Translations under genes and position numbers: made by a program
DNA from: a virus
Virus record (IMG/VR): IMGVR_UViG_3300025138_000175
Location: 1-33,322 of that record
Reading direction: 5' to 3' (one strand)
DNA: 33,322 nt
Part shown: positions 22,779 through 28,808 of the stretch, piece by piece
Position numbering within the stretch: the first letter of the stretch is position 1
Layout of the letters: each line of letters opens with the position of its first letter
Notes under the pieces: generated by a model
What the model was told of the DNA's origin: nothing
The model's database searches: none
What the model saw: only the letters and a program-made list of their open reading frames with translations

Positions 22779-23995
22779 TAGAAGATCCTGAAGTCGAAGG
22801 CCTGAGTCGTAGTTTGCTTCCACGCCTTGACCGCCAAAGCGAGTGCGCACACTCCATCGTCGTGTGATCCGACCGGTGCAGAGTATCTGACACCTGTTCG
22901 TGTGTGTTCGAATTCAAAGATGTCGAGTTCGGTTCGCAGCCATCCATCAGGGTATCGGACATCCTGTGTTGAGATGGCTGCTGCCAAACCCTCCATGAGT
23001 TGTTGCTTGCTTGTGCTTGAGAACTTAAAGCCTTGAACCTGCAAGCACTTGCTTTGTAGTTGTTCGACGACAGGATCACCCAAGCCTGTCGAATCAACGA
23101 GAGCGAAGGTATCACCGACGAGTTCTTCAATTCGTTGGACAGTGGTTTTCCAATCGGTCCCGTGCCATCGTTCACAGACTGCTACTCTACCTTCATCGTC
23201 CAAACCAATCACAACTGTGTAGTCAACAGACTTTGCAAGGTCCACTCCGAACACAATTGCAGGGCTGGACGACATTGGACCGACACACTCGTTGATTGCT
23301 TTGATGCCGAACGGGTTGCCTCCATCGTCGCTAGGTTCTGCAAGGTACAGTTCGCGAAACACATGCTCCGGCAAGATGCGTTTGGCTGATTCAACTTCTT
23401 CAGGGTCAAGCACGCCACCTTCGATCGCATCGTATGCCGTGAGCTTGTGATACCCCATATCAGGCGCACCACCTTCAGCAGTGCGTGCAATTTGATATGC
23501 CCAGTTCCTCCGGCCTTTGACGTTGCCGATGATGCGAATTGGTCCCTTTGTTGCAGTCAAGGTCGAGCGTACTGCAATCCATGACTCTTCACGACATCGC
23601 GATGCCTCGTCGATGACAGCAGCATGCACGTCTTCACCGTACAGGCTGTCGGGATTGTCAGCGCCTTTGAACCATATCTTTGACCCATTCCACAACCCGA
23701 TCCAGAGTTCCGAGTTGTGTTCGGTCCACACTTTGTGTTGCGGGTCTGCTTGCATGAGCATCGACTTCATGCGTGCGAAGCCGATCGCCTTTGCTTGTTG
23801 ATATATCGGTGCAACCCACCAGAACGCTTTGCCTTCACCACCGTTGTTCCAAGCCTGCAACAACAGCCATGCAAGGCAGCCGGCAGTCTTGCCGCTCTTC
23901 GTGCTTGCCTCAATGACAACAATTCGTGCAGGGTCACAGATTGCTTTGTGTTGCTTCTTGTAAGGCGGGGGCAATTTAAGCGTAGGTGTTTCCAT
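22778..23995 (-). CDS. terL: Terminase large subunit
   Basis: This 405-residue protein is a packaging ATPase and nuclease. Walker A is ASTKSGKT (30-37), and Walker B with catalytic Glu is AVIDEA (D129, E130). The RNase H-like nuclease has Asp252 in FGVDLAKSVDYTVV, Asp301 in ALVDSTGLGD and Asp379/380 in GSHDDGVCALALAVK. The length is slightly short for TerL, but all motifs are intact. The start overlaps the sigma-like gene by 20 bases. No classical small terminase was recognised next to it. Confidence 0.95.
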   Translation of the reverse strand: METPTLKLPPPYKKQHKAICDPARIVVIEASTKSGKTAGCLAWLLLQAWNNGGEGKAFWWVAPIYQQAKAIGFARMKSMLMQADPQHKVWTEHNSELWIGLWNGSKIWFKGADNPDSLYGEDVHAAVIDEASRCREESWIAVRSTLTATKGPIRIIGNVKGRRNWAYQIARTAEGGAPDMGYHKLTAYDAIEGGVLDPEEVESAKRILPEHVFRELYLAEPSDDGGNPFGIKAINECVGPMSSSPAIVFGVDLAKSVDYTVVIGLDDEGRVAVCERWHGTDWKTTVQRIEELVGDTFALVDSTGLGDPVVEQLQSKCLQVQGFKFSSTSKQQLMEGLAAAISTQDVRYPDGWLRTELDIFEFEHTRTGVRYSAPVGSHDDGVCALALAVKAWKQTTTQAFDFRIF

Positions 23996-24485
23996 GTTGC
24001 TTGAACTCGCCTCCTTGCCTTGCTTGCTTTAATCGTTGCGAAATACGTGACTCGCTGACTTGCACAACTCTGCCGACTTGCCTTTGCGTCAAACCCCTAG
24101 CGATCAGGTGCATCCAGTCTGGATGCGTTTCATTCAACATGCCTTGATGTTCGTCATGCGTATCGTACCAAGGCACTTCAGGCAGTTCGTCGACTGTGAA
24201 CTCCCTTGTTCTGTATACCCTGACTCCACCACTTCGAGGTTGCGAGCACTGTGTGCATGTGTGTTTGAAGTACGACCGAGACACAGGGCAGTACAAAGAG
24301 GTGAACAGGAATGCAGCATACGAGCCTTTGGTTGGATTGTAACGGTGTGCAATGTGGTGTGCAGCTATGAACGCCTCATTGTACAACTCATTGAACTCCC
24401 AGCGATAAAAGAACTCACGCTTCTTGTTGCACCACTTGCGCAATATGTAGGCAAGCCGATCCGGCTCTACTTGTCCGGGTTCCAT
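23976..24485 (-). CDS. Sigma-70-like / helix-turn-helix protein
   Basis: This 169-residue protein has an N-terminal helical block like sigma region 2 (about 32-72, with FNELYNEAFIAAHHIAHRYN) and a C-terminal helix-turn-helix like sigma region 4 (about 129-157, with ARGLTQRQVGRVVQVSESRI). A Cys pair (CTQC) and an acidic linker lie between. It could redirect host RNA polymerase to late promoters, or serve as the DNA-recognition partner of terminase given its place just upstream of terL. I favour a sigma-like factor but cannot separate the two. Confidence 0.6.
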   Translation of the reverse strand: MEPGQVEPDRLAYILRKWCNKKREFFYRWEFNELYNEAFIAAHHIAHRYNPTKGSYAAFLFTSLYCPVSRSYFKHTCTQCSQPRSGGVRVYRTREFTVDELPEVPWYDTHDEHQGMLNETHPDWMHLIARGLTQRQVGRVVQVSESRISQRLKQARQGGEFKQHGNTYA

Positions 24486-24816: not shown

Positions 24817-25365
24817 CTACTCCAGTGCAAGAAGCTCACCCCGTGCAGTGGGGTCGTCTTTGAGAATGCCTAGCATGCAGGATGTTGTCATCATTGCATC
24901 GGGCTGCCTTACCCCACGACAACCCATACAGGAGTGGTGAGCGCGAATCACAACACCGACCCCGCGAGCGTCAACGTGGTCGAACACAGAATGCGCAATC
25001 TGTTCAGTCATGCGCTCCTGAACCTGCAAACGCTTTGAGAACACGTCGACAACTCGTGCAAGTTTGGACAACCCCACAACACGATCGCCCGGGATGTATC
25101 CAACTGTTGCTGTGCCTTGAAACGGCAAGCAGTGGTGTTCGCACATGCTTGTGAACCGTATGCCTCGAAGTATGATTAGCTCATCGAACTTGACATCGAA
25201 CGTTGTTCCGAGAGCTTCGGCGGCGTCCATTGCGTATCCAGCAGTCATCTCCCTCCAAGCCTTTGCCACACGCTTTGGAGTATCGAGCAAGCCTTCACGA
25301 TTAGGGTCTTCACCAACGTGTTCAAGCAGTGTCCTGACTGCTGCCCTTGTTTCTTCTTCGCTCAT
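24817..25365 (-). CDS. folE: GTP cyclohydrolase I (FolE)
   Basis: This 182-residue protein starts at ATG 25365 (MSEEETRAAVRTLL), overlapping the QueE stop as ATGA; the longer frame to 25440 is inside queE. It has the complete FolE I signature: GLLDTPKRVAKAW, then SMCEHHCLPFQGTATVGYIP with zinc ligands Cys75 and His78, GLSKLARVVDVFSKRLQVQE, and HSCMGCRGV with the third zinc ligand Cys146. It converts GTP to 7,8-dihydroneopterin triphosphate, the first step to 7-deazaguanines as well as folate. Beside queD, queE and dpdA its role here is surely DNA modification. Confidence 0.95.
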   Translation of the reverse strand: MSEEETRAAVRTLLEHVGEDPNREGLLDTPKRVAKAWREMTAGYAMDAAEALGTTFDVKFDELIILRGIRFTSMCEHHCLPFQGTATVGYIPGDRVVGLSKLARVVDVFSKRLQVQERMTEQIAHSVFDHVDARGVGVVIRAHHSCMGCRGVRQPDAMMTTSCMLGILKDDPTARGELLALE

Positions 25366-26000
25366 CTTCTGTTCCAAACCTTGTGCAGTTGTGCGCACAA
25401 ACGCCACTCCGGATTCTGCTCGACGAGTTCGATGCACCATCGCAACGACTCTTGATCCAATGTGAGACCGTTGAAAGCGGGAGAAAGTAATTGATGATCC
25501 GCCTTACACTTTGGCTTTGGCACTGCTTGCCCAACACCTCGAACGTACTTTACTTCGTCTGCTGTTTCGCAACGCACTGCATGCTCTGCAACTTTAGGCG
25601 ACACAGTGATCCAATCAATGCCTCTGCCCCGCACGTCGATGGAACCATTCGTCTCGATTGCAACATAGAACCCACGCTCCTTCAACAGTTCAATCAGTCT
25701 TTTATCAAGTTGAATGCCGGGTTCGCCACCTGTGCAGATCACTGCTTTGTTGTCTGACTCTGGATTACCCGAGCCTTCGCTCCAGCACTTGTCAACAAGA
25801 TCAACGATCTCTTCAGCAGTGTGTCGGTTGCCGCTCTCAAACTCTGTGTCGCAATCAAACCCGCCCGGCGACTTGGGCCCGGCCTCTTTGGCACAACGCA
25901 TGTTGCATCCAGTGAAACGCAAGAACACGTTCGCTGTTCCTGCACGCATGCCTTCGCCTTGCAGCGAGTAGAACCATTCATTGACTTTGTAGCTTTTCAT
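25362..26000 (-). CDS. queE: 7-carboxy-7-deazaguanine synthase (QueE, radical SAM)
   Basis: This 212-residue protein starts at ATG 26000 (MKSYKVNEWFYSLQGEGM). The radical SAM cluster cysteines are C32, C36 and C50, in GCNMRC then GGFDCDTEF; this is CX3CX13C, an inserted-loop version of the canonical CX3CX2C, a kind of variation known among QueE proteins. CTGGEPGIQLD binds SAM. The enzyme converts 6-carboxy-tetrahydropterin to 7-carboxy-7-deazaguanine. The start overlaps the queD end by 23 bases. No mutation of key residues is seen. Confidence 0.93.
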   Translation of the reverse strand: MKSYKVNEWFYSLQGEGMRAGTANVFLRFTGCNMRCAKEAGPKSPGGFDCDTEFESGNRHTAEEIVDLVDKCWSEGSGNPESDNKAVICTGGEPGIQLDKRLIELLKERGFYVAIETNGSIDVRGRGIDWITVSPKVAEHAVRCETADEVKYVRGVGQAVPKPKCKADHQLLSPAFNGLTLDQESLRWCIELVEQNPEWRLCAQLHKVWNRR

Positions 26001-26424
26001 GATCTGCCTTTCTGTATACAACTGTGGAGCTTTGTGTTTCACGCAATCGAACCCACTCGACATCGAGCACGCAATTGGTCAACTTTTCATACAGCCATCG
26101 TGCCAACATTTCAGCACTGGTCGGGCCGTCGAAGTGAACAATCTTATGCGCTGACATGTCCTGTGTTGTGAGCAGTTTCATCGCCATCACGAGCGCACTG
26201 TCATCCTTGTCGACAAGTATGCTGTGATCAAGCGTGTCAGTAAAGTGCGACAGATGTGTTTCGATTTCACTGAACAGCATAGTCACACCATCGTCACCTT
26301 CTTGGCCTACGTTGAAGCATGCCGTTACGTAGTACGTGTGGCCGTGCAATGAATGACACTTGTCACCACGAAGGTGTTGGTTGCGATGTGCTGCATAGAA
26401 GTAGCCTGTGCGTTCAATCCTCAT
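25978..26424 (-). CDS. queD: 6-carboxy-tetrahydropterin synthase (QueD)
   Basis: This 148-residue protein starts at ATG 26424 (MRIERTGYFYAAHRNQH) behind AAGGAAGATCAACA. The zinc triad is His13, His27 and His29 (SLHGHTYYVTACFNV), the catalytic Cys is C23 (DKCHSLHGH), and D66-H67 (LDHSIL) and Glu129 (RLRET) complete the site. The length is normal for the family. It makes 6-carboxy-tetrahydropterin from dihydroneopterin triphosphate, the step between FolE and QueE. The coding order in the cassette places it directly before queE. Confidence 0.93.
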   Translation of the reverse strand: MRIERTGYFYAAHRNQHLRGDKCHSLHGHTYYVTACFNVGQEGDDGVTMLFSEIETHLSHFTDTLDHSILVDKDDSALVMAMKLLTTQDMSAHKIVHFDGPTSAEMLARWLYEKLTNCVLDVEWVRLRETQSSTVVYRKADHEKLQSQ

Positions 26425-26995
26425 TGTTGATCTTCCTTGTCTGCTTAGGCGTAAGCGACTTCGCTTGCATGTCGAACCAATCGACATCTTTGTAGTTGTC
26501 AAGAAACCACTTAAACAACTGAATGGCAACAACTGACCAGAACAAGCCACCGATGAACTTGCTTCCTGCTTGTGTTGCACTGAGCCAGTAGTCGACAGAA
26601 GCGAACGCGATCATTGGGAACACAATTGAATCCATGAGCGCGGCGACTGCATTGCTTATGTTCATCTTGAACATGCGATTGTGATGCCTGAACAAGTGGT
26701 ACACAAGAGCGTTCGCAATGCCTGCCAATGAGAATGCAGCAGTCGAAGCAACTGCAACGTGCAAACTGGCAGGTGAACACAAGTAGGACAACACAGATCC
26801 ACCAGCGATCAAAGCAAACATGCGAAGCCAAAGGTGATTGTGCTTCCATCGTTCGTGCAACAAGTCTCTCGTGACAAGGTCAAACGGGATCAACACAAAG
26901 GCAGTCACAGGCAGTGCAGCCTGTCCGAACGCTGCAACTGACAAGTTGGCAATCACGATTGCGGCAAGGAATACAATTACAACTGCAACAGTCAT
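26414..26995 (-). CDS. VUT/YhhQ-like membrane protein, putative 7-deazaguanine precursor transporter
   Basis: This 193-residue protein has about six hydrophobic segments. It shows the VUT-family pattern: an early ANLSVAAFG, IPFDLVTRDLLHERW, then FSLAGIANALVYHLF and ISNAVAALMDSIVFPMIAF. E. coli YhhQ of this family imports preQ0/preQ1. The start overlaps the upstream gene as ATGA and the end overlaps queD by 11 bases, so it is an integral part of the cassette. It may supply a precursor that the phage pathway cannot finish, since no QueC is present. Transport is inferred from family. Confidence 0.75.
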   Translation of the reverse strand: MTVAVVIVFLAAIVIANLSVAAFGQAALPVTAFVLIPFDLVTRDLLHERWKHNHLWLRMFALIAGGSVLSYLCSPASLHVAVASTAAFSLAGIANALVYHLFRHHNRMFKMNISNAVAALMDSIVFPMIAFASVDYWLSATQAGSKFIGGLFWSVVAIQLFKWFLDNYKDVDWFDMQAKSLTPKQTRKINNED

Positions 26996-27336
26996 GGAGA
27001 GTAGATAGCTCCGTTCTCACCGTCTTCCAGCACTTCGACCGAATTGAAATCAAACTCATCGCATATTCTTCGCGCCCACTGTTCGCACGACCATGCGTAG
27101 ATGTCGTGGTTGACAGTTGCATCGTGCATTGTTTCTTCGCACCATGTTTGCACTTCTCGCTTCTTGGCGATGAACTCAATCTCTCTTCTGCTGTCAACGC
27201 CTTGGCCTTCGACGTTGAACCAGCAAGTGACACGAAACATGTGTCGATGCAGATTGCCAAGGTACGAATGCTCGGATGGAGCGTCAGGCCAGCAGTGGAA
27301 TCCTTCGAACTCAAACTTGCACAGTAGTGTCATCAT
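26992..27336 (-). CDS. Divergent QueD-like (T-fold) protein
   Basis: This 114-residue protein aligns with the neighbouring QueD: GNLHRHMFRVTCWFNV against HSLHGHTYYVTACFNV, SCEQWARRICDEF against the QueD helix with SAEMLARWLYEKL, and VEVLEDGENGAI at the end. His14, His30 and His32 match the QueD zinc triad. The catalytic Cys before the LHxH motif and the DH pair are absent, so it is probably not a standard carboxy-tetrahydropterin synthase. The start may be either of two adjacent ATGs. It might act on a related pterin or deazapurine, or be a binding subunit. Similar small phage proteins exist without known function. Confidence 0.6.
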   Translation of the reverse strand: MMTLLCKFEFEGFHCWPDAPSEHSYLGNLHRHMFRVTCWFNVEGQGVDSRREIEFIAKKREVQTWCEETMHDATVNHDIYAWSCEQWARRICDEFDFNSVEVLEDGENGAIYSP

Positions 27337-28207
27337 CGGACAAGCCTTCTTTCATGTATCCATGTTTGACGATTAGTTGCCTCGCAACTTTAATCATATC
27401 AACTTCAGCAAGCGTGCCGAGTGCCATGAACGTTCGTGTTCCCAGTTGCTGCCTCAGTTCGATGACGTAACGCAACCACGACATGGTCGTAACACGTTGA
27501 TGAATGCCTTTGTTTGTGACCCACTGCTCTGTGTTCTGCAATTCGCGCACTGTGTATCCAGCGTCATTGATAGCTCTTTTCATCTGCATGCTGATTGGTT
27601 GTGTTGCAACATTGTCACGACCTAACCTTGTCATCTTGCCTTTGCCTTCGTACACGTGAACTTGTGCAAACAACATGCCAGTCTTCCAACTCATTGCATC
27701 GCAACTGTGTGGCGTAAGGCTCGCAACCATGTCGAAGTTTGTGTATCCAAGCCAATGCACCTTGCGGCCTTTCGCCATTCGCATCTTGTCGACTACATAC
27801 CCCTTCGGTGCTGGACCACGTCCGGGCCTTCTGAAACCTCCGAGACATATCTTTGATGCACGCTCGAACAGTTCATCCATCTTCTTTGCAGTGTCGCCCC
27901 AAACATGCACGGGCATTGGATCCAAACCTGCATCCCACATCACTTTGAGGTTGCTTGCTGTGGCAGCAGGATTCCCAAGCACGTCGAGAGCAACAAAGCC
28001 ACCAGTGAACTGATCGCCGTAAGTTGAGACGAACTCCATGTATTCATCTAGTTCAATGACAGCCCCAGCGTTCTTTGCACTGAACGCGCCACTGTCTAAC
28101 ATGACCTCGAACCCGTCAGCAGTTGCGCCGCCGTGAGTGAAGTAGCGTTTCCGTTCTTCGCCGAGCTTCCTGAGATAGTGGTACGAAATCAGGATAGGGA
28201 TACGCAC
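27311..28207 (-). CDS. dpdA: DpdA-type 7-deazaguanine DNA transglycosylase
   Basis: This 298-residue protein is counted from GTG 28207 (VRIPILISYHYL), preceded by CAGGAACTTT; an in-frame ATG at 28297 would add 30 residues but overlaps the ParB-like gene. It belongs to the tRNA-guanine transglycosylase superfamily in the phage DpdA form: VMLDSGAFSAKNAGAV (Asp38), FVALDVLGNP (Asp75), KICLGGFRRP, HWLGYTNFD, and HSCDAMSW with candidate nucleophile Asp170. DpdA enzymes replace guanine in DNA with a 7-deazaguanine base. The flanking folE, queD and queE genes make a DNA-modification role very likely. Confidence 0.85.
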   Translation of the reverse strand: MRIPILISYHYLRKLGEERKRYFTHGGATADGFEVMLDSGAFSAKNAGAVIELDEYMEFVSTYGDQFTGGFVALDVLGNPAATASNLKVMWDAGLDPMPVHVWGDTAKKMDELFERASKICLGGFRRPGRGPAPKGYVVDKMRMAKGRKVHWLGYTNFDMVASLTPHSCDAMSWKTGMLFAQVHVYEGKGKMTRLGRDNVATQPISMQMKRAINDAGYTVRELQNTEQWVTNKGIHQRVTTMSWLRYVIELRQQLGTRTFMALGTLAEVDMIKVARQLIVKHGYMKEGLSDDDTTVQV

Positions 28208-28247
28208 AAAGTTCCTGTGTCCTTGTGCATGCACAACTCCGCAAGGC

Positions 28248-28808
28248 TTAGAACGCTTCTGCTTTGTATTTGTATTCACTGTTGTTGAGTGTCTCATTGA
28301 TAAGGTCCGTCACTGCTTGTTTGTCGTCGTGACTCACACCAACTACTTTCACAACGTAGTTCTCGTGAACTTTCTCGTCGTAGTCAATGTCCGCAATGCC
28401 TTCAATCTCAGGCCAGCTTTGTTGCATGCTGTCGAGTTCAGATTGATTGAACCCAACAGTTTCAATTGTCATTCCAAGGCTTGCAAGCTCTTCGAGTGTT
28501 CGTTGCAGTTGTTCGTCGTCCCAACCACCCAACTCGCTTGTTCGATTGTCAGCAACAGCGAAGGCAGTTTGTCCGACCTGTTCGAGACTTGAAACAACTA
28601 CGAACAGTTCTTCCCAGCCTAGCTCTTTCGCTGCTTGCGTTGTGCAGTGGCCCGCGATGATTTGGCCTTCTTCGTTGATGACGATCGGCTTCTGTTGCCC
28701 GAAGTTTTCGAGGCTCGCTTTGACTGCTTCTTTGTTTCTTTCGTCGTGCTGCCTTGCGTTGTTTGGGTCTTCCGTGAGGTCTTTGATCTTGCGGGTCTTG
28801 ACTTGCAT
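28248..28808 (-). CDS. ParB/Srx-like domain protein
   Basis: This 186-residue protein starts at ATG 28808 behind TTGGAGACACA. It has the ParB-like pattern: KIKDLTEDPNNARQHDERN, SLENFGQQKPIVINEEGQII and AGHCTTQAAKELGW. The C-terminal half is acidic and helical with no catalytic methylase motif, although such N-termini often precede DNA methylases. It is directly upstream of dpdA. Bacterial dpd islands also pair DpdA with a ParB/DndB-like partner (DpdB), so a helper role in base exchange is a reasonable inference. The first 190 bases are overlapped by the tail of the upstream gene. Confidence 0.75.
   Translation of the reverse strand: MQVKTRKIKDLTEDPNNARQHDERNKEAVKASLENFGQQKPIVINEEGQIIAGHCTTQAAKELGWEELFVVVSSLEQVGQTAFAVADNRTSELGGWDDEQLQRTLEELASLGMTIETVGFNQSELDSMQQSWPEIEGIADIDYDEKVHENYVVKVVGVSHDDKQAVTDLINETLNNSEYKYKAEAF

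Follow-up and report, generated by a model that had tools for sequence, protein, structure and literature searches.

A QueD-derived T-fold protein stands in the place of QueC in phage 7-deazaguanine cassettes and may act as a 7-carboxy-7-deazaguanine decarboxylase

The locus described here raises the question of how a phage cassette for 7-deazaguanine synthesis and DNA insertion operates without QueC, and what a small gene of that cassette contributes. The window, i.e., the whole stretch of DNA that was analysed, comprises 33,322 nt (IMGVR_UViG_3300025138_000175, positions 1 to 33,322). Its minus strand carries, in this order and with small overlaps, genes for a ParB-like protein (28248..28808; PHROG 620, 5.5e-39), a DpdA-like DNA-guanine transglycosylase of 328 aa (27311..28297; PHROG 887 'queuine tRNA-ribosyltransferase', 3e-23; no Pfam match at E ≤ 1), the 114-aa protein in question, here called DpdL-like (26992..27336), a YhhQ/COG1738-like queuosine-precursor transporter of 193 aa (26414..26995; Pfam Vut_1 3.5e-6, just over cut-off; PHROG 4899, 3.9e-32; TIGR00697 5.8e-5, below cut-off), QueD (6-carboxytetrahydropterin synthase; 25978..26424; Pfam PTPS 5e-22; PHROG 2389), QueE (7-carboxy-7-deazaguanine synthase; 25362..26063; TIGR04508 2e-45, below its cut-off; PHROG 2076, 4e-31) and FolE (GTP cyclohydrolase I; 24817..25440; Pfam 2e-69; TIGR00063 2e-65, over cut-off). 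The listed QueD ORF opens at 26580, with a probable ATG at 26424, and QueE probably starts at about 26000. A profile search found no QueC domain (PF06508) in the whole window, nor in the DpdL-like protein. Downstream of FolE, a 169-aa ORF (23976-24485, minus strand) matches sigma-70 region 4 at 1.5e-5, over the cut-off, and region 2 weakly; judged by these matches, it is a possible phage sigma factor.

The DpdL-like ORF begins with ATG, ends with a stop at 26992-26994, and shares 26 nt (27311-27336) with the DpdA ORF and 4 nt (ATGA, 26992-26995) with the YhhQ-like ORF. These overlaps with both neighbours place the gene in a single row of genes, flanked by dpdA and the transporter gene, which is where the sequence-only reading had put it. 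The single protein has no Pfam or NCBIfam match at E ≤ 1, and hence none over the PF01242 gathering cut-off, and it belongs to no PADLOC family. Its sole family match is PHROG 17812 (4e-12), a family whose function is not annotated, with residues 7-111 aligned on 10-111 of 115.

The protein had been taken for a paralogue of the adjacent QueD, and its fold and profile bear this out. By BLASTP, the pairwise similarity to the adjacent QueD is weak (21 aligned residues, E 9e-4 in one single comparison), but an hhalign comparison of 98 family sequences with 125 QueDs aligns them over the full length at 96.7 % (E 4e-10), and negative controls with profiles of FolE and of the glycosyltransferase, DCD-like and X9 neighbours discussed below stay at or below 1 % each. 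An AlphaFold model built with 45 family sequences (pLDDT 92.7, pTM 0.84) shows the T-fold order strand-helix-strand-helices-strand-strand. In a Foldseek search of the PDB, E. coli QueD is on top (E 3e-5, TM 0.70-0.72), and VIA-align gives Z 10.3-11.1 over 93-111 residues for the ten best PTPS/QueD chains, followed by dihydroneopterin aldolases (Z near 9) and by QueF-like, with Z 8.3 for 84 residues. Searching PDB sequences with the family profile (hmmsearch) reaches QueD at E 0.06 only, among chance matches to repeat proteins; the kinship is settled by the fold search and the profile-profile comparison. A recent local duplication of the adjacent queD was considered and rejected, since the family and all the QueDs fall into two separate clades in a tree built from 28 members of the former and 33 of the latter (support 100/100, with several long branches and a bootstrap that had not settled). 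The DpdL-like protein is thus an ancient QueD paralogue in which the metal-type site and the Glu that reads the base persist, the reaction residues of QueD are gone and a conserved set of its own has been gained.

The residues give this descent its detail. Mapped on E. coli QueD, H14, H30 and H32 correspond to H16, H31 and H33, L26 to the catalytic Cys27, R31 to Gly32, and E104 to Glu110, whereas the Asp70-His71 pair has no counterpart in the aligned stretch of any family member. The earlier observation that three histidines are kept and that the Cys and the Asp-His pair are lost therefore holds for the window protein and for the family alike (L26 in 101/101); it had overlooked the kept Glu110 equivalent, E104, and an invariant Cys of the family's own, C84 in an 'SCE' motif, elsewhere than the QueD Cys. 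H14, L26, H30, H32, R51, E54, S83, C84, E85 and E104 occur in 101/101 family sequences, and R31, V102 and D105 in 100/101, the exception being Aeromonas phage Ahp1 (F in place of R31, E for D105, I for E107). A first count over 98 sequences had omitted L035, L036 and L066, which were checked whole separately to give the figures of 101. The window protein has R31, R51, E54, S83-C84-E85, D105 and E107 at the family-conserved positions, the alignment of 45 family sequences contains 14 invariant columns, and the active-site residues are identical across glycosyltransferase-positive, glycosyltransferase-negative and window-type members. By homology, H14/H30/H32 would form a metal-type triad, with the bound metal presumed from these ligands. 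In the QueD set drawn from the same loci and the control loci (n = 125), the Cys is present in 125/125, the Asp in 124, His71 in 125 and the Glu in 123, but H16 in no more than 77 and H33 in no more than 72; the window QueD itself retains its Cys, Asp-His and Glu. Many phage QueDs, e.g., ORFs of L079 and L099, have Tyr for the zinc His33 (53/125) or Phe, Tyr or Ala for His16 (48/125), with Cys, Asp-His and Glu retained.

Relatives in PHROG 17812 are mainly viral, and at least 572 stretches with a member were confirmed when IMG/VR was scanned with a motif. Named phages with a member include Cellulophaga phages phiST, phi13:1 and phi19:2, Acidovorax phage ACP17, Faecalibacterium phage Roos, Chryseobacterium phage MA9V-3, Sinorhizobium phage Phosso, Rhizobium phage RHph_I1_18, Vibrio phages Bakedbeans and D479, Aeromonas phage Ahp1, Pseudomonas phages PA5oct and Paride with relatives, Xanthomonas phage X1 and Synechococcus phage BUCT-ZZ01. 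In addition, 11 GTDB genome contigs each have one family member, and a plasmid search gave no family match. For the analysis of neighbourhoods, 125 family loci were retrieved, among them nine phage records; removal by eye of 24 near-copies left 101, and together with nine further loci (L128, L129, L130, the window, L189, L198, L199, L204 and L211) these make 110 family loci, in which L051/L198 and L059/L211 are from the same contigs. As controls, 80 loci whose FolE resembles that of a QueC-bearing dPreQ0 phage were collected regardless of the family, a way of choosing that counts against the contrast drawn below, and 75 of them are family-free; FolE was chosen as the query as the QueE alignment was too divergent. 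Whole-record searches covered 50 chosen records (nine phages and 41 contigs, longer ones preferred), three further phages and the window, 54 in all.

The family gene keeps the company of the pathway. Flanks of the 110 family loci contain FolE in 75, QueD in 58 and QueE in 67, 97/110 have a TGT/DpdA-like gene from any of four groups, and at least one of FolE, QueD, QueE or a TGT/DpdA-like gene lies near the family gene in 105/110 loci. The sequence-only reading would have been refuted by a predicted fold other than the T-fold or by homologues lying mostly away from 7-deazaguanine genes; the model is a T-fold, and these counts place nearly all homologues beside such genes. QueC, in contrast, is found in the flanks of 0/110 family loci vs. 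70/75 family-free FolE controls. Among all 80 controls, 70 have QueC only, five the family only, none both and five neither (Fisher 1e-5, to be read as a guide only, as the samples share descent; family loci and control loci are both phylogenetically non-independent). The 50 whole records contain QueD in 39, QueE in 45 (44 strong, one weak), a DpdA of the PHROG 887 kind in 19 and QueC in one, and among all 54 records QueC is above the cut-off in that one alone: the three further phages have none over the cut-off, with a sub-threshold match in Xanthomonas phage X1. The single co-occurrence is Vibrio phage D479 (OZ195776.1), in which an annotated QueC-like gene and the family gene are separated by about 100 kb; this case and the X1 match count against strict exclusion. 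In D479, the DpdL-like gene is at about 51 kb (L035), and the QueC-like gene (153707-154513, L131) is beside a nicotinamide phosphoribosyltransferase gene.

Gene order points in the same direction. Mycobacterium phage PenguinLover67, which has the same ParB-like neighbour of dpdA as the window, has the order ParB, TGT-like, queC, queD, queE, folE, and queC's slot there, the dpdA-queD interval, is taken in the window by the DpdL-like gene and the transporter gene. A family match in PenguinLover67 (E 0.03) proved to be its QueD and was discarded. The transporter is no hallmark of the window's cassette, given that a dPreQ0 phage also has a YhhQ-like gene next to queC. The window belongs to a small group with a PHROG 887-type DpdA and no glycosyltransferase hit (L004, L029, which is Roos, L038, L039, L065, L123, L124 and the window), and L039 has the gene order of the window with the transporter in the identical place. 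We are highly confident that the DpdL-like protein replaces QueC in gene set and position, downstream of 7-carboxy-7-deazaguanine (CDG). The earlier suggestion that the protein substitutes for the missing QueC step thus stands as regards position (0/110 vs. 70/75 in flanks, and queC's slot); as regards chemistry it is unlikely, since QueC has a Rossmann fold and consumes ATP, and the 114-aa T-fold protein shows no domain of that kind.

The DpdA-like partners fall into four groups, some only remotely related to one another: the tie of the PHROG 10773 TGT-like protein to DpdA is an hhalign score of 82 %, with no match to PDB sequences at E ≤ 1, and the Par540-DpdA (67 %) and C4-PHROG 10773 (45 %) ties are each weak taken singly. 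Minimal sets, in which a DpdA-like gene is present and FolE, QueD and QueE are absent from the flanks, occur in Faecalibacterium phage Roos and in an Aurantimonas locus (L122), suggesting that the DpdL-like protein acts close to DpdA. The Aurantimonas genome contig has TGT-like, YhhQ-like, DpdL-like and glycosyltransferase genes in a row (L122:6056-9430), FolE, QueD and QueE being absent nearby, and looks like a salvage version of the cassette. In the DpdL-like locus of Synechococcus phage BUCT-ZZ01, a phosphoribosyltransferase annotated as XGPRT (L130:5444-5902) lies between QueE and QueD; such an enzyme could convert a 7-deazaguanine base into the nucleotide.

Passages of PMC13329287 and PMC6884629 describe QueE as the enzyme that makes CDG, at which the pathway ends in the absence of QueC. 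The exclusion of QueC, the company of FolE, QueD, QueE and DpdA and the kept pocket Glu thus make CDG the most likely substrate. As to the reaction, we lean, with only slightly more belief than doubt, towards a reading absent from the earlier note, in which the DpdL-like protein is a metal-dependent CDG decarboxylase that acts after QueE and gives 7-deazaguanine for DpdA. For decarboxylation via protonation of C7, the carboxylate must be held by a metal or by arginines and an acid must lie close to C7; residues of these types are offered by the family (H14/H30/H32, R31, R51, E54, C84 and E107). The 2-amino-4-oxo edge is common to pterins and 7-deazaguanines. The analysis shows the fold, the homology, the conserved residues, the partner genes and the near-exclusion with QueC; we infer the metal, the substrate, the reaction, the insertion and the protection in the following scheme. 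FolE, QueD and QueE of the cassette would supply CDG, the 2-amino-4-oxo edge of which would be gripped by E104; the H14/H30/H32 metal and the conserved R31 and R51 would lie near the 7-carboxylate, and a conserved acid group, for which E54, C84 and E107 are candidates, would protonate C7, upon which CO2 leaves. DpdA would then swap the resulting 7-deazaguanine for guanine in the phage DNA to form 2′-deoxy-7-deazaguanosine, and the absence of N7 from the major groove may blunt host restriction.

The main doubt about decarboxylation comes from a glycosyltransferase family linked to the DpdL-like gene, which is present in 62/110 family loci, in 0/75 family-free controls and in 5/5 family-positive controls (e.g., L122:8369-9430; L028:5972-6997, Acidovorax phage ACP17; L128:13837-14895, Paride). 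It is GT-B kin, by a PDB sequence match (E 6e-5) and by the Pfam Glycos_transf_1 score of one member, which passes the cut-off, and the linkage suggests sugar-bearing 7-deazaguanine DNA. In two lineages (L012, L014 and L015; L059/L211), each with a glycosyltransferase gene nearby, the DpdL-like ORF is 284-302 aa long and includes a fused N-terminal PIG-L/LmbE-type (GlcNAc deacetylase-type) domain, as identified in one lineage by a Pfam match below cut-off (1.5e-4) and in the other by motif; an NAD epimerase-type sugar gene occurs in 17/110 family loci vs. 0/75 controls. At C7, plain 7-deazaguanine lacks an ordinary O- or N-linked handle; the product in those phages may therefore be another one, which counts against decarboxylation. 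Thus, a tentative alternative, which we rate as clearly doubtful, is a different change of CDG, in which the 7-carboxylate is activated or transferred, or a C7 derivative with a handle is formed as the sugar acceptor in the glycosyltransferase phages. However, the active-site residues are alike in all groups, so one product should serve all and would also have to be the end product where the glycosyltransferase is absent, and the neighbour clusters contain no partner gene for ATP, SAM or redox chemistry that all members share. 7-Deazaguanine as the end product fits the window, which has no linked glycosyltransferase and no kinase-like or PIG-L fusion, and fits a group of 31 loci with a short TGT-like gene (C4); the glycosyltransferase group needs glycosylation at C7 or elsewhere, or a different product.

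Other readings concern the role of the protein rather than its product. The sequence-only reading had also offered escort of the base to DpdA, and a non-catalytic carrier that passes on CDG or a related base after binding it, leaving dCDG as the DNA base, would agree with the retained E104 and T-fold pocket and with Roos and L003, which have the family gene and a DpdA-like gene and lack QueD and QueE throughout the record. We regard it as unlikely, since almost every one of the 101 sequences keeps the metal-type triad together with two Arg and several acidic residues despite four quite different DpdA-like partner groups, a poor fit for an escort, and since no DpdA-like fusion is found among the inspected family ORFs over 190 aa, in which kinase-like, PIG-L and X9 fusions do occur. 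Performing the reaction of QueC by other means, i.e., making ADG or preQ0 from CDG, would explain the gene's position in the slot of QueC, and QueF-like T-fold enzymes amidate 7-deazaguanine nitriles; against it, no ATP-binding domain is seen in the 114 residues and no QueC domain is present. A degenerate regulator without an enzymatic role is likewise at odds with a large family that has 14 invariant columns in 45 sequences, and we hold this pair of readings to be very improbable. The least likely of the alternatives is a second pterin enzyme before QueE, either a QueD variant or one that processes H2NTP or CPH4. The QueD fold would suit it, and some phage QueDs lack the zinc histidines (H33 in 53/125, H16 in 48/125), so the work might be split; yet Cys and Asp-His are gone in every family member, QueD itself is present in 39/50 whole records with its residues kept, and the exclusion with QueC would be left unexplained.

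Further accessory genes set the C4 group apart. The 31 C4 loci and the 62 glycosyltransferase loci have an overlap of 0, and a dCTP-deaminase/dUTPase-like gene is present in 25/31 C4 loci (e.g., L079:9384-9926) and never with the glycosyltransferase. A P-loop AAA_18-type (nucleotide-kinase-like) domain is fused to the family protein in two C4 loci, one of which, tested against Pfam, scored 6e-6, just below cut-off. Such a domain, fused or adjacent, is seen in L016, L017, L024 and L056, in L019, and in L027 (phiST gp039-gp042, adjacent); these loci also have the short TGT-like gene, phiST has a MazG-like gene as well, and the arrangement looks like nucleotide-level chemistry. A 176-aa domain, X9 (motif GxEVExTxxxxxxTLFVxG), adjoins the family gene in L091 (7430-7957) and 24 other family loci and forms the C-terminal part of the DpdL ORF in L037, L040, L064 and L189; its model (pLDDT 76.7) has no PDB match at E ≤ 0.001, and the domain has no Pfam or PHROG match.

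A wider reading, speculative and rather unlikely in its entirety, is that one QueD-derived enzyme feeds three genome chemistries. In the window group, DpdA would insert 7-deazaguanine as such; in the glycosyltransferase group (62/110), C7 of 7-deazaguanine, exposed and electron-rich, would be the acceptor of the GT-B enzyme, giving a carbon-linked glycosylated guanine in DNA that is sometimes deacetylated by the fused PIG-L domain; and in the 31 loci that never have the glycosyltransferase, the short TGT-like and dCTP-deaminase-like partners and some P-loop kinase-like fusions would lead to nucleotide-level exchange and wholesale replacement of G. If the preferred reading of CDG decarboxylation is right, one T-fold enzyme derived from the pathway's own QueD repeatedly diverts the queuosine pathway at CDG in phages, and the smallest possible change of a DNA base, the loss of the guanine N7, serves as a simple way of evading restriction enzymes; decarboxylation by a metal-type T-fold protein would itself be unusual. 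For the window phage, it predicts that part of the guanines are 7-deazaguanine, and the travelling glycosyltransferase predicts sugar-bearing 7-deazaguanine DNA in relatives, including the cultured Pseudomonas aeruginosa jumbo phage Paride and Acidovorax phage ACP17. What is out of the ordinary is the near-exact exchange with QueC together with the accessory chemistry around the relatives.

Compared with known systems, QueF and QueF-like enzymes share with the DpdL-like protein a T-fold and, as proposed here, action on the 7-substituent of a 7-deazaguanine, and QueF-like forms a covalent thioimide (title of PDB 5jyx), whereas the structural match to them (Z 8.3, 84 residues) is far weaker than that to QueD. 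QueC (7-cyano-7-deazaguanine synthase, PF06508) has the same place in the pathway and in the gene order and seldom shares a genome with the family, but it is unrelated in fold and size, being described in a passage of PMC13329287 as a Rossmann-fold enzyme that uses ATP and ammonia. QueD (PTPS, PF01242) shares the T-fold, the three metal-type His, the Glu110 equivalent and a similar length; the family differs in the Leu at the catalytic Cys27, the missing Asp70-His71, its own HRH/R51/E54/SCE/ED set, its separate clade and its position below PF01242 detection. Also close is the DpdL of Cui et al. 2023, who reportedly found 2′-deoxy-7-deazaguanosine and 2′-deoxy-7-carboxy-7-deazaguanosine in phages and are said to have given the name 'DpdL' to a proposed CDG decarboxylase that accounts for dDG, with FolE, QueD and QueE making the substrate and DpdA inserting the product. 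This DpdL we believe to be the QueD-like family PHROG 17812, and the window protein is very probably a member of the family already proposed under that name. The title of that study appears among the works cited in PMC12783734; the literature searched contained no paper on the PHROG 17812 family and, with the key papers beyond its reach, is silent on whether the glycosyltransferase link is in print. The window and the family resemble DpdL in occurring with FolE, QueD, QueE and DpdA and without QueC (with the exception of D479), whereas the glycosyltransferase link and the fusions are not known to be part of the DpdL account. The glycosyltransferase link and the kinase-like and PIG-L fusions are what is new here, and the glycosyltransferase link is also the main new lead.
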